Assembly (NCBI RefSeq): GCF_038024105.1 | Contig: NZ_CP150661.1 | Location: 1,054,001-1,118,000 of the forward strand | Length of the DNA stretch: 64,000 nt | Reading direction: 5' to 3' | Source: Polaribacter butkevichii | GTDB taxonomy: Bacteria; Bacteroidota; Bacteroidia; Flavobacteriales; Flavobacteriaceae | Translations under genes and position numbers: made by a program | Shown: piece after piece, positions 53,801-59,913 of the stretch | Layout of the letters: each line of letters opens with the position of its first letter | How positions within the stretch are numbered: the first letter of the stretch is position 1 | Notes under the pieces: generated by a model | Database searches by the model: none | Seen by the model: only the letters and a program-made list of their open reading frames with translations | Told to the model about the DNA's origin: nothing

Positions 53801-54106
53801 TTATTTTAACCACCAAGTAATTTCTCTAATTCCGTCGTTAGAACCTCCAAATTGTCTTTCAATAGCTTCAGTTACATTTGCTGAATTGTTATTGTATTCG
53901 TCTAAAGGATAAATCCATCTTGTTGGTGGTGTGTCTGAACCTAAATAAGGAAACTCAGGAACCCCTGTTCTTAAATGATCAAAGTACATTTTCCATCCTC
54001 CTTGTAAAAAAGACGTTAAATACTTTTGAGTTAAAATTAATTCTAATTTTTCTTCATCTGTAGTTGCATTTAAAAAGTTCACTTTTTCTAATGATACTTT
54101 TTTCAT
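53801..54106 (-). pseudogene. C-terminal remnant of a SusD/RagB-family protein
   Basis: Only the last 101 residues of a SusD-type outer-membrane lipoprotein remain. LEKVNFLNATTDEEKLELILTQKYLTSFLQGGWKMYFDHLRTGVPEF is the well-conserved C-terminal block (the EKLELILTQKY and GWxxYFDxRRTGxP signatures). The end, RWIYPLDEYNNNSANVTEAIERQFGG, is the usual SusD close. The lipoprotein signal and about 400 preceding residues are missing. The frame upstream of 54106 soon reaches a stop and runs into the SusC remnant in another frame, so this is the downstream edge of a deletion. The product should not be functional. Confidence 0.85.
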
Positions 54107-54305
54107 CTTTATACTCTATCTTAAAATTTCCATCAAAATCAGTGGTTGTCCATTTATTTTCTTTTAATACACGAACACTTGCTTCCGGTAATAAAGCTCC
54201 AGTTTCATCTACCACCTTTCCCTTTAAAACTTGCTGAGAAAAAACTGCTGTCCCCAGAAATAGTAAGATTAAAATTAAAAAATCACTTAAAAATTTGTGT
54301 TTCAT
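54054..54305 (-). pseudogene. N-terminal remnant of a SusC/TonB-dependent receptor
   Basis: The 83-residue frame begins with a signal peptide (FLILILLFLGTAVFSQQ) and a carboxypeptidase-regulatory-like domain, LKGKVVDETGALLPEASVRVLKENKWTTTDFDGNFKIEYKDE, the standard start of SusC receptors. Homology ends there, near 54106. The next residues (KSIIRKSELFKCNYR) are the SusD remnant read out of frame. The plug, barrel and nearly all of SusD, normally about 4 kb, are absent. A simple deletion with one edge in the SusC N-terminal domain and the other in the SusD C-terminal part explains the arrangement. The promoter region, 54306-54540, may still be active. Confidence 0.83.
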
Positions 54306-56626: not shown

Positions 56627-57421
56627 ATGAAAAATAAAATTACACTGCTAGCATTCTCTTTTCTTTTTATAACTACAGTTGCTCTTGCTCAGAAAAAAGT
56701 AAAAGCCTCTGATATTATGAAAGATATAAAAGCAGGTAAAGCAATTTCTATAAACAACGCAACTATTATTGGTGTTTTAGATTTTACTTATATGGATGAT
56801 GCTGTAAAAAAAATGCCCATTAAAAAGAAAAGTAGCTGGTTTAATTGGAGCTCAAATAGTTCTACAAACGAAATTAAAAAAATAATAGACGTTCGTATTT
56901 CTTTTATAAACTGCACTTTTAAAGATGATGTTTTAGCTTATATACCCAATGAAGCATCTGGACTTACATATACAGCTAGTTTTAAAGATGAAACTATTTT
57001 TAAAAACTGCATTTTTAAGCATAAAGCCATGTTTAAATACTCTCGTTTTGAAAGAAAAACTGATTTTTCTGGAACTTCCTTTAATGATGACAGCACCTTT
57101 AAGTATGCCAAATTTGACAATAAAATTAGCTTTTCGAATACCATTTTTAATGAAATTGCAACTTTTAAATATGCCAAATTTAGTAATAATGTAAGTTTTA
57201 ACAATGCTTTATTTAAAGACACTGCAACCTTTAAATATACTAACTTTTCTAATGGAGTATCATTTAATAACACAACTTTTAAAGAGGATTTAAATATTAA
57301 ATACATGAAAGTTTCGGGTGATTTTAACATTACAAACATGCACGTAGCTTATGAAATAGACGCTAAGTACACCAAAATTAACGGAAAAAGCTTCAATAAA
57401 ACTTCCATTGATAAAAATTAG
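56627..57421 (+). CDS. Secreted pentapeptide-like repeat protein
   Basis: This 264-residue protein has a signal peptide (1-21, ending ALAQ), a linker region, and from about residue 90 repeated F-x4/5-F units of the pentapeptide-repeat type, for example FINCTF, SRFERKTDF, AKFDNKISF and AKFSNNVSF. Residues 134-221 form four near-identical 22-residue repeats in which phenylalanines are spaced 5, 6, 5, 6, slightly longer than the canonical 5. A quadrilateral beta-helix outside the cytoplasm is expected. No enzymatic motif is present. Together with the head-GIN protein across the regulator, it suggests a secreted pair of beta-helix proteins under one AraC regulator. Confidence 0.8.
   Translation: MKNKITLLAFSFLFITTVALAQKKVKASDIMKDIKAGKAISINNATIIGVLDFTYMDDAVKKMPIKKKSSWFNWSSNSSTNEIKKIIDVRISFINCTFKDDVLAYIPNEASGLTYTASFKDETIFKNCIFKHKAMFKYSRFERKTDFSGTSFNDDSTFKYAKFDNKISFSNTIFNEIATFKYAKFSNNVSFNNALFKDTATFKYTNFSNGVSFNNTTFKEDLNIKYMKVSGDFNITNMHVAYEIDAKYTKINGKSFNKTSIDKN
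57026..57289 (+). repeat. Four 66-bp imperfect tandem repeats inside the repeat-protein gene
   Basis: Codons 134-221 consist of four 22-codon units (starting AMFKY, STFKY, ATFKY and ATFKY) with high similarity at protein level and moderate similarity in DNA, best between the last three. This is the coding trace of repeat duplication in the beta-helix, and it could change length by slippage. Confidence 0.75.
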
Positions 57422-57433
57422 GTATTTCTACCT
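57420..57433. promoter_or_regulatory. Dyad operator candidate, copy 1
   Basis: AGGTATTTCTACCT is a perfect 5-base inverted repeat (AGGTA, four bases, TACCT). The first base overlaps the last base of the stop codon of the repeat-protein gene. It lies 37 bases, start to start, before a TAAATTGC element, the same distance as in copy 2 at 57769. Confidence 0.6.
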
Positions 57434-57456
57434 GTATTTTATTGTTTTTTAAATTA

Positions 57457-57557
57457 TAAATTGCACCCATAATGGAGATAGTTAGAATTAAGGGGCTAAC
57501 AAAAACCAAAACTAACTAGCTTTTTTTTAAATAAAAAAGCTAGTTTTTTATTTTTAG
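57457..57557 (+). ncRNA. Candidate small RNA unit, copy 1
   Basis: The unit begins with a TAAATTGC element at 57457-57464, which resembles a Bacteroidota -7 box, and a conserved GCACCCA. A hairpin has stem GTTAG/CTAAC (57481-57485 and 57496-57500) and a ten-base loop ending GGGG. The unit closes with a perfect 13-base terminator stem (57514-57526 and 57533-57545) and a T-run. A possible 15-codon frame from the ATG at 57472 is broken in copy 2, so the conserved product is RNA rather than peptide. The transcript would be about 75-85 bases. Function is unknown. An Rfam search including the flavobacterial motifs would be the first test. Confidence 0.5.
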
Positions 57558-57768
57558 AAAACTATCAATTAATTATCAACATTATTATAACGTAAAACAA
57601 CTTTTAAAGGTTTAAAAACACTATTCTTCTTTACTCTCTTTTCCTATAAAATTACATTTTTTTCTTATGTAATAACTATAAAACCTATAATTTTCTGCTA
57701 AATAAAAAGCACCAAAATGGCCTCATAAAACATTTAAAATAGTGCAGCAAATAAAATTATTATAAAAC
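57558..57768. other. Spacer between the two small-RNA-like units
   Basis: These 211 AT-rich bases show no frame, hairpin or promoter that I can support. They are not part of the duplicated unit. Confidence 0.4.
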
Positions 57769-57782
57769 AGGTATTTATACCT
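57769..57782. promoter_or_regulatory. Dyad operator candidate, copy 2
   Basis: AGGTATTTATACCT has the same AGGTA, four bases, TACCT dyad as the one at 57420 and the same 37-base offset to the TAAATTGC element (57806-57813). The sequence between dyad and element differs between copies while its length is kept. Confidence 0.6.
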
Positions 57783-57805
57783 ATTTCTTATTCATTAATA
57801 AATTA

Positions 57806-57900
57806 TAAATTGCACCCACAATGGAATAGTTAGAATTAGGGGGCTAACTAACACCAACACTAACTAGCTTTTTTTAACAAAAAAGCTAGTTTTTCATTTT
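57806..57900 (+). ncRNA. Candidate small RNA unit, copy 2
   Basis: This is the second copy of the unit at 57457. It has TAAATTGC (57806-57813), GCACCCA, the GTTAG/CTAAC hairpin (57829-57833 and 57844-57848) with a ten-base loop ending GGGGG, and a 13-base terminator stem (57862-57874 and 57879-57891) with the same AACTAGC core but a different loop. A one-base change in length after the ATG puts a stop at the third codon, so no peptide is shared. Differences lie mainly in the loops and linkers, as expected for a structured RNA. Confidence 0.5.
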
Positions 57901-58087: not shown

Positions 58088-58118
58088 TTTGTTAAATCAA
58101 TCAAAAATTCCTAATTTG
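58088..58118 (+). promoter_or_regulatory. Candidate promoter of the acyl-CoA synthetase gene
   Basis: TTTG at 58088-58091 and TAATTTG at 58112-58118 are 20 bases apart, close to the TTTG-N19-TAnnTTTG consensus but one base short in the second box. The start codon follows 19 bases later. Confidence 0.45.
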
Positions 58119-58137
58119 CCTATTCAAATGATAAACT

Positions 58138-59913
58138 ATGGCAGTAGAAATTACAAGATTATTCGATTTTCCTTATTATCAATTAGAAACCTATAATTTA
58201 GAAAAAGCGTTTACATCTAAAATAAATGGTAGCTGGAAATCTATTACAACACAAGAATATGTAGATCAAGCCAACCGAATTAGTCGAGGATTAATTAATC
58301 TAGGCATAAAGCCTAACGATAAAATTGCCGTAATTTCATCTACAAATAGAACAGAATGGAATATTTTAGATATCGGAGTTTTACAAACAGGAGCACAAAA
58401 TGTACCTATTTACCCTACTATTTCGGAAGAAGATTACGCATATATTTTAAACCACTCTGAGGCAATTTATTGTTTTGTTTCAGATAAAGATGTTTTAAAA
58501 AAGGTAAATAAAATAAAAAAAGAAACCAATTTAATAGCTGTTTATACTTTTGATGATATTAAAGGTGAAAAAAGTTGGAATGAAATTATAGAATCTGGAA
58601 AAGATAAAAGCAATCAACATATCCTTGACGAAAGAAAAAACAATGTAAAAACAGATGATTTAGCTACTTTAATTTACACATCTGGTACAACAGGTAAACC
58701 TAAAGGTGTAATGCTTTCTCATAAAAATATTGTTAGCAATGTTTTAAGTTCAGAAAAACGGGTACCGTTTGATTATGGTAAATCTGTAGGTTTAAGTTTT
58801 TTACCTATTTGCCATATTTTTGAACGCATGATTTTATATTTATATCAATATTGTGGTGTTTCTATTTATTTTGCTGAATCTATTGAAAAACTTGCCGAAA
58901 ATGCACAAGAAGTAAAACCACACGTTATGACCGCCGTACCACGTTTGTACGAAAAAATTTATGATAAAATAATTTTAAAAGGAGAAACGTTAACGGGGTT
59001 TAAAAAAGGGTTGTTCTTTTGGGCTGTAAATTTAGGTTTAAAATACGAACCGTATGGAGTAAACGGTTGGTGGTATGAACTACAATTAAAGTTAGCTAGA
59101 AAATTAATTTTTTCTAAATGGCAAGCCGTTTTAGGTGGTAAATTAAAATTAATGGTATCTGGTAGTGCAGCATTACAACCAAGATTAACACGAGTTTTTG
59201 CAGCAGCAGGAATGCCAATAATGGAAGGTTATGGTCTTTCTGAAACATCGCCTGTAATCTCTGTTAACGACGAAAGAAATGGAGGTTTTAAAGTTGCAAC
59301 TGTAGGTAAAATTATTGATGGTATTGATGTAAAAATTGCAGAGAATGGCGAAATTTTAATAAAAGGCCCTAATGTAATGTTAGGATATTACAAAGACGAT
59401 GAAAGAACCGCAAACGTAATAAAAGGTGATTATTTTTACTCCGGTGATAAGGGAGAATTTGATTCTGATGGCTTTTTAAAAATTACTGGACGAACTAAAG
59501 AAATGTTTAAAACTTCTGGAGGTAAATATGTAGTTCCACCATTATTAGAAGGAGAACTTAAACAATCTTTATTTATAGAACAGGTAATGGTTATTGGTGA
59601 AGGTGAAAAAATGCCCGCAGCTTTTATTCAACCAAATTTTGATTTCATTAAAGAATGGATTCATCATAAAAACTTAAATATTGGTACTACAAATAAAGAA
59701 ATAGTAGCTTCTGACATCGTTATAAAACGTATTCAAAAAGAAGTAGATAAATGTAATAAAAACTTTGGTAAATGGGAACAAATAAAACGTTTTGAACTTA
59801 CACCAGAAGTTTGGTCTATAGAAGATGGTCATTTAACACCAACCATGAAAATGAAACGAGCAGTTATTAAAGAAATCTATAAAGATTTATTCGATAAAAT
59901 TTATAGATCATAA
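58138..59913 (+). CDS. Long-chain fatty-acid--CoA ligase (AMP-forming)
   Basis: This 591-residue ANL-family enzyme would activate long-chain fatty acids as acyl-CoA through an acyl-adenylate. The P-loop is LATLIYTSGTTGKPKGVMLSH near residue 180, followed by SFLPICHIFERM, LMVSGSAALQPRLTRVFAAAGMPIMEGYGLSETSPVIS near 345, the ATP-binding aspartate in YFYSGDKGEFDSDGFLKITGRTKEMFKTSGGKYV near 445 and the C-terminal lysine region PTMKMKRAVIKEIY. The LSETSP and long-chain type spacing match the FadD15/FAA group of Bacteroidota. It has its own promoter and terminator, so it is probably a single-gene unit. Confidence 0.9.
   Translation: MAVEITRLFDFPYYQLETYNLEKAFTSKINGSWKSITTQEYVDQANRISRGLINLGIKPNDKIAVISSTNRTEWNILDIGVLQTGAQNVPIYPTISEEDYAYILNHSEAIYCFVSDKDVLKKVNKIKKETNLIAVYTFDDIKGEKSWNEIIESGKDKSNQHILDERKNNVKTDDLATLIYTSGTTGKPKGVMLSHKNIVSNVLSSEKRVPFDYGKSVGLSFLPICHIFERMILYLYQYCGVSIYFAESIEKLAENAQEVKPHVMTAVPRLYEKIYDKIILKGETLTGFKKGLFFWAVNLGLKYEPYGVNGWWYELQLKLARKLIFSKWQAVLGGKLKLMVSGSAALQPRLTRVFAAAGMPIMEGYGLSETSPVISVNDERNGGFKVATVGKIIDGIDVKIAENGEILIKGPNVMLGYYKDDERTANVIKGDYFYSGDKGEFDSDGFLKITGRTKEMFKTSGGKYVVPPLLEGELKQSLFIEQVMVIGEGEKMPAAFIQPNFDFIKEWIHHKNLNIGTTNKEIVASDIVIKRIQKEVDKCNKNFGKWEQIKRFELTPEVWSIEDGHLTPTMKMKRAVIKEIYKDLFDKIYRS

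Follow-up and report, generated by a model that had tools for sequence, protein, structure and literature searches.

A conserved family of small RNAs in Polaribacter with a candidate activator site at its promoter

Two similar units lie between a pentapeptide-repeat protein gene and an acyl-CoA ligase gene in the window (the whole stretch of 64,000 nucleotides that was analysed, positions 1,054,001-1,118,000 of a 4.08-Mb genome), each made up of a dyad, a promoter-like box, a hairpin and a terminator. A sequence-only reading of this DNA had proposed that they are diverged copies of a small RNA gene with its own operator. Are they separate genes or parts of the transcripts of their neighbors, and how might their expression be controlled?

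Two tandem units in the window

The units and their flanking genes are all on the plus strand. The pentapeptide-repeat gene (56627..57421) encodes a 264 aa protein (PF13576) with a start that resembles a signal peptide by eye, and its TAG stop codon (57419-57421) overlaps the copy 1 dyad, an overlap absent from the sequence-only reading. This dyad, AGGTA-N4-TACCT (AGGTATTTCTACCT, 57420..57433), and its counterpart in copy 2 (AGGTATTTATACCT, 57769..57782) are the proposed activator sites. The -7 box TAAATTGC, of the TAnnTTGY type described in a study of F. psychrophilum (PMC9723704), begins exactly 37 bases after the start of the dyad in both copies (57457..57464 and 57806..57813), as had been claimed. 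Small RNAs of ~81 nt (57469..57549) and ~79 nt (57818..57896) are predicted to follow, with both start and end estimated and with +1 placed by setting the box at -12 to -5.

The copy 1 hairpin (57473..57508) is closed by outer UGG/CCA pairs (57473-57475/57506-57508) and carries the loop AAUUAAGGGG (57486-57495) on an inner GUUAG/CUAAC stem (57481-57485/57496-57500). The copy 2 hairpin (57822..57856) has the same outer pairs (57822-57824/57854-57856) and the same inner stem (57829-57833/57844-57848), with the loop AAUUAGGGGG (57834-57843). Both loops are ten bases long with GGGG or GGGGG at the end, and an intrinsic terminator with a 13-bp stem containing AACTAGC follows in each copy (57514..57545 and 57862..57891), in agreement with the original description. 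Blastn matched the two units to each other at 85-87% (E 1.9e-37 and 7.2e-37), and among the matches listed these were the sole long ones in the 4.08-Mb genome. Folding z-scores for the whole RNA stretches were -2.86 (copy 1) and -3.54 (copy 2); the first hairpin is in the minimum fold of copy 2 and absent from that of copy 1.

A short peptide had been noted as possible in copy 1 and broken in copy 2, and this was the case, with 15 codons in copy 1. Across the 37 copies of the RNA described below, this peptide ranges from absent (no ATGG start) to 27 residues. We rejected a peptide-coding role because the reading frame is not conserved across these copies.

Elsewhere in the window, two short frames on the minus strand at 53801-54305 encode a C-terminal piece of SusD (101 aa) and an 83-aa piece that by eye is like the start of a TonB receptor. 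Together they look like the remnant of a SusC/SusD pair.

Distribution, structure and loop of the RNA

We ran a covariance model (R1) made from the RNA part alone, with the dyad left out, over 166 Polaribacter genomes. The model matched 33 genomes at E 1.1e-6 or better. Matches in two further genomes, G243 and G318 (E 2.7e-4 and 3.4e-4), were accepted because they are flanked by the same neighbors. This gave 37 copies in 35 of the 166 genomes, with two copies each in the window's genome and in its near relative G273, the only genomes in which the duplication was found. The other 131 genomes, some of them incomplete, had no accepted copy. At E up to 0.1 the model matched 58 genomes, and the 17 weaker matches inspected beyond the accepted copies were terminators only; the large genome searches used stricter filters and may lose weak members.

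Blastn over the 166 genomes of the genus likewise gave long matches in several species, and a family-wide blastn search of 199 genomes from 198 genera found the units in the window's genome only (E 1e-5). A second model (R2), run over 397 genomes of the family including at least three of Polaribacter, found no real homolog outside the genus; its four matches there (E 1.6e-4 to 5.2e-4) were rejected as terminators lacking the hairpin, the dyad and the neighbors. Phage and plasmid collections contained no match to the units. An Rfam search, which the sequence-only reading had suggested, gave 0 matches to any Rfam 15 family in the 64-kb window, and a permissive search gave 8 matches, all far under the cut-off and none reaching a gathering score. 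We conclude that this is a real, conserved small-RNA family that is absent from Rfam 15.

RNAalifold was run unguided on 18 copies aligned with MAFFT, an alignment that does not lean toward the structure. It returned the outer UGG/CCA pairs, the GUUAG/CUAAC stem and the terminator. The structure tested on these rows was that of RNAalifold with one pair added by hand; 97.1% of cells pair, 10 of the 20 pairs have changed on both sides, and none of 500 shuffles scored as high. When the partner was slid along the alignment, pairing fell to 14-59%. Among the 35 model-aligned copies, whose alignment does lean toward the structure, 97.0% of cells pair and both sides have changed in 16 of 20 pairs (0/500 shuffles). 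The covarying pairs that had been sought in homologs are thus present in both alignments. A conserved secondary structure with compensatory changes and without a conserved reading frame is what marks a bacterial trans-acting small RNA. The RNA also has its own promoter and an intrinsic terminator, as judged by sequence.

The loop hardly varies: GGGG is present in 35 of 35 copies and UUAGGGG in 32, the two weakest members, with diverged loops, lying outside this set of 35. We searched for sites that such a loop could pair with. The string CCCCYTAAT occurred 24 times in the window's genome and its reversed control 32 times, which is no excess. The only occurrence close before a start, at pheS, overlaps a -7 box by eye, is probably not transcribed and was set aside. 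In nine RNA-positive genomes, GCCCCTAA-N0-30-ATG had 105 matches against 22 for the reversed control, which has a CG step, so that the excess is not trusted. Five recurring strings were read at 11 places, and those shared between species were antisense within genes or lay in unrelated contexts.

A lead was obtained in a single species, G206, in which three paralogous genes for secreted-looking proteins (L367, L368 and L369) carry GCCCCTAATCTAATG at the start, with GCCCCTAATC in the start region. Both strings are perfectly complementary to the loop of that species, GCCCCTAATCTAATG over ten bases with the closing base included. Two of the three frames can also extend upstream through GCCCCTAATCTAATG. 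The predicted duplexes have energies of -24.2 to -24.9 kcal/mol, and the strongest among 716 other ATG windows reaches -23.3 kcal/mol, a biased comparison because the sites were chosen by seed.

The loop might instead bind and sequester a protein rather than pair with mRNA. Protein-binding RNAs, too, combine a covarying stem with an unchanging loop, and no target recurs across species, as would suit such a role. However, the target patterns tested were narrow, no candidate protein is at hand and, to our knowledge, there are no CsrA-like systems in this phylum. Of the alternatives to our preferred reading this one keeps the most weight, and we still regard it as rather improbable. Pairing of the loop with mRNA is the mode of action that we favor.

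The dyad and its spacing to the -7 box

A dyad matching at 8/10 positions or better lies upstream of 36 of the 37 copies, compared with 44 of 1042 random 90-base stretches from the same loci. Since the dyad had been left out of the search model, finding it here tests the family largely independently, and the expectation that other copies would have it upstream was borne out. The exception, L104, has a diverged yet palindromic dyad (AGGGGAAAACCCCT), placed by hand, and in L103 both halves have changed together (AGGTGTAAACACCT). A -7 box was found in 36 of 37 copies, at an offset from the dyad start of 37 (31 copies) or 38 (5 copies); the sequence is TAnnTTGY in 32 copies, TAnnTTTG in four and neither in one.

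For F. psychrophilum, one study gives the sigma-A -7 box as TAnnTTTG at -12 to -5, and places TAnnTTGY (motif SM5) at the same position, where an alternative sigma factor is proposed to use it (PMC9723704). If this box position is carried over, transcription would start at 57469 and 57818, and the dyad would span -49 to -36 with its center at -42.5. Most of the RNA promoters have no conserved TTG in the -33 region, by eye. TTG is present there in L107, L109 and L110, three divergent species that have ~30 extra bases between box and hairpin and have kept both dyad and box. An operator fixed near -41.5 at several promoters is characteristic of class II activators, and these promoters show this arrangement when the predicted start site is used.

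We asked where else the dyad occurs by searching ASGTATNNATACST in 16 RNA-positive and 6 RNA-negative genomes. The RNA-positive genomes had 49 sites, of which 14 belong to the RNA itself, and the reversed control pattern had 37 there; in the RNA-negative genomes the counts were 4 and 15. In the RNA-positive genomes, dyads outside the RNA are thus not in excess of the reversed control in number, and the case for an activator therefore rests on spacing. Contexts were read for 36 sites, 33 of the 35 outside the RNA in RNA-positive genomes plus three of the four in RNA-negative ones, and open frames assigned them as 23 intergenic and 13 genic. A -7-like box (5/6 letters) was present at exactly 37 bases, an offset predicted from the RNA unit, in 11 of the 23 intergenic dyads and in none of the 13 genic ones; the mean was 1.2 such boxes per offset with both orientations pooled. 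These 11 cases reduce to six independent ones after orthologs and one duplicate are taken into account. A further three non-RNA sites have the box at 38, and the three RNA-negative sites read have no box of this kind. The best boxes of these other dyad promoters are TAnnTTTG, and several of the promoters precede secreted-looking proteins by eye.

One such promoter is in the window's own genome (L005, ~C1:2159775), where TAATTTTG lies at 38 from a 9/10 dyad (AGGTATAAATACCC) and an ATG lies at 100. The protein encoded there, of at least 474 aa, had no Pfam or NCBIfam match. G264 (L243) encodes a protein 51% identical to it over 481 positions, behind a promoter of the same arrangement.

An activator site is the best explanation for a dyad that keeps an exact distance to the -7 box in promoters unrelated to each other, and we consider that the dyad is best read in this way, near -42.5. 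The sequence-only reading had placed an activator at about -43, and the exact 37-base spacing in promoters outside the RNA supports this position relative to the predicted start. Its suggestion of a NarL/FixJ-type activator was not supported. NarL sites are inward-facing TACYNMT heptamers with a spacing of 2, and the half-sites of AGGTA-N4-TACCT face the opposite way with a spacing of 4. The 5-4-5 form of the dyad is closer to that of CRP/FNR sites. We sought CRP-family (PF00027) proteins with an ortholog in both of two RNA-positive genomes and in neither of two RNA-negative ones; the sole candidate was rejected, as its occurrence, in 17 of 166 genomes, does not match that of the RNA. A CRP-family protein common to all species is a possible regulator.

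The dyad could also be the operator of a repressor, and a protein bound at -49 to -36 might indeed block polymerase. However, a repressor site would tolerate other positions, in contrast to the exact spacing seen in unrelated promoters, and the lack of a conserved -33 TTG in most RNA promoters is what an activator contacting polymerase demands. Repression is therefore unlikely, and the activator site remains our reading of the dyad.

Two further observations were made among the dyad promoters. At L240, L261, L263 and L267 (G220, G247, G259 and G287), a dyad with a -7-like box at 37 is followed by ~100-120 bases without a nearby reading frame and by a conserved terminator (AAAAGCCTCATTTC...GAAATGAGGCTTTTT in L263); this stretch is a candidate second small RNA with the same kind of promoter. 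At L253 (G274), a ACGTATTTATACGT dyad lies 49 bases before a gene that by eye resembles nirB (nitrite reductase), and is possibly the site of a related but different regulator.

Genomic neighbors and independence of the unit

The gene downstream of the RNA is conserved. In the window it encodes an AMP-binding, FadD-like acyl-CoA ligase (58138..59913), for which no NCBIfam model scored at or above the cut-off. A ligase gene follows the RNA on the same strand in 33 of the 33 loci with room for it, the other locus being at a contig end. It is the ortholog of the window's gene or a paralog, at a distance of 54-284 bases from the RNA (extrapolated from a partial match in L112).

This constant order would suit a cis-acting leader, in which readthrough into the ligase gene would be set by the hairpin together with a conditional terminator. 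In 24 of 33 loci a weak pairing between one half of the hairpin and an arm of the terminator also has a lower energy than the average of shuffles (-5.43 vs -4.30 kcal/mol in the mean), the chief remaining argument for a leader. However, this alternative pairing is small, and the ligase gene does not appear by sequence to depend on a leader promoter. Its separate promoter in the window (58089..58119, identified from the sequence and from relatives) has a TTG at 58089-58091 and the box TAATTTGC at 58112-58119, and a -7 box 20-33 bases before the ligase start was found in 32 of 33 RNA loci and in 20 of 21 RNA-negative ones, counts made without a shuffled control. TTG is upstream of this box in 18 RNA loci and 14 RNA-negative loci, and the promoter often differs little in sequence between loci that have the RNA and loci that lack it. 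The varying distance to the ligase, the paralogous neighbors in some species and the two tandem promoter-to-terminator units in the window's genome and in G273 also fit poorly with a single leader. The ligase's own promoter thus makes a leader quite unlikely, more so than repression through the dyad. The box of this promoter, in the window and in relatives, is itself of the TAnnTTGY (SM5-like) type.

Of 34 loci, 31 have a pentapeptide-repeat gene or its remnant upstream of the RNA. In 21 of them the stop codon of this gene overlaps the dyad, so that the RNA is nested there in the 3' region of the gene. The RNA is kept in L098, L104 and L111, in which no pentapeptide gene was found, and in L042 and L046 (G287 and G282) only remnants of the gene lie beside an intact RNA unit. 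Although the overlapping stop codons, and the simple terminator seen by eye at the same place in RNA-negative species, would agree with a unit that is only the 3' UTR and terminator of the pentapeptide gene and has neither promoter nor function itself, this is very improbable, given the loci that keep the unit without the gene (one of them, L104, with a diverged dyad) or beside its remnants, the position of copy 2 in the window away from the pentapeptide gene, and a dyad, fixed box and constant loop that a plain terminator would not need; nesting with its own promoter agrees with a separate RNA gene.

Among 28 RNA-negative loci that were read, 21 keep both genes adjacent with a plain terminator between them by eye. 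In L174 (G350) a decayed RNA unit follows the pentapeptide gene, with the dyad-like AGGTATTCACACCC kept and the hairpin and terminator degenerate, again by eye. A quick ligase tree with 34 RNA-positive rows and 18 of the 28 RNA-negative loci (the rest were dropped, having no qualifying match) needed 4 changes of RNA state compared with 15.1 in shuffles; its deep branches are weak. The tree suggests vertical inheritance of the RNA with losses, or a few gains.

Proposed function and comparison with known systems

The computations establish conservation, covariation, a fixed spacing of dyad and box, the absence of a conserved reading frame and a separate ligase promoter. Homologs found by a dyad-free model, covarying pairs and a dyad at fixed distance also uphold the original proposal of a duplicated small RNA with its own operator. 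The likely explanation is that each unit encodes a short regulatory, non-coding RNA of ~80 nt, driven by an activator and acting in trans through its loop; that it is transcribed, that the dyad serves activation and not repression, and that the RNA acts in trans are what we infer. A putative dimeric activator would bind AGGTA-N4-TACCT near -42.5, substituting for a good -33 element, and recruit RNA polymerase to the TAnnTTGY -7 box. The transcript would fold into a hairpin that displays the almost invariant G-rich loop (UUAGGGG in most copies), and end at its own intrinsic terminator. The loop would then act in trans, most likely by pairing with mRNA. The gene, nested at the 3' end of the pentapeptide-repeat gene in most loci, would have passed vertically through Polaribacter, with a duplication in the lineage of the window.

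A broader and more tentative suggestion, to which we give less than even weight, is that one Polaribacter activator, recognizing dyads like AAAACAGGTATTTATACCTGTTTT with the -7 box locked at 37, controls a regulon of secreted-protein genes and two small RNAs: the hairpin RNA, with UUAGGGG as an mRNA-pairing seed, and the second RNA of at least four species. Our estimate of this single-activator regulon is lowered because the dyads show no excess in number. If true, it would be a regulon centered on small RNAs in a major group of marine bacteria. Polaribacter is known for breaking down algal blooms, and our searches left the impression that little has been mapped of small RNAs and activator sites in marine flavobacteria. 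The RNA family itself is compact and vertically inherited; it covaries strongly, its promoter architecture is defined, and its motif hints at a regulon.

Searches of the open-licence literature gave no description of the RNA or its dyad among the matches listed. The string AGGTANNNNTACCT was absent from it; of the listed matches to motif strings, none contained AGGTATTTATACCT and none was relevant by title, and a search for Polaribacter with small RNA gave nothing relevant by title. One motif string in PMC5715377 is part of a primer and is irrelevant here. The kind of RNA is already known; what appears to be new is the family, together with its operator and the signs of a regulon.

The closest parallels by description are the Rfp RNAs of F. 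psychrophilum, which are also independent structured flavobacterial small RNAs. Rfp18 is reported to be conserved within the genus; deleting it lowers the mRNAs of two metalloproteases, and pairing is predicted to involve one of its stem-loops (PMC9723704). The likeness is one of description, and the part of the account consulted mentions no activator dyad (PMC9723704). The SM5 promoters in the same text (PMC9723704) share the TAnnTTGY box found in 32 of 37 RNA copies; the Polaribacter RNA differs in adding an upstream dyad, and four copies use TAnnTTTG.

The dyad also resembles the sites of class II promoters of the CRP/FNR type, being a 14-bp 5-4-5 dyad with A/T-tract flanks at about -42.5, whereas its half-site AGGTA is not known to match a site of that family. 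In their arrangement, the two units of the window are like OmrA/OmrB, PrrF1/PrrF2 and LhrC, which are adjacent, diverged copies that each have a promoter and a terminator and have kept their structure. The resemblance to OmrA/OmrB and PrrF1/PrrF2 is one of arrangement, and the score for LhrC (22.7 bits, against an Rfam cut-off of 110) is far below what membership of that family would require.
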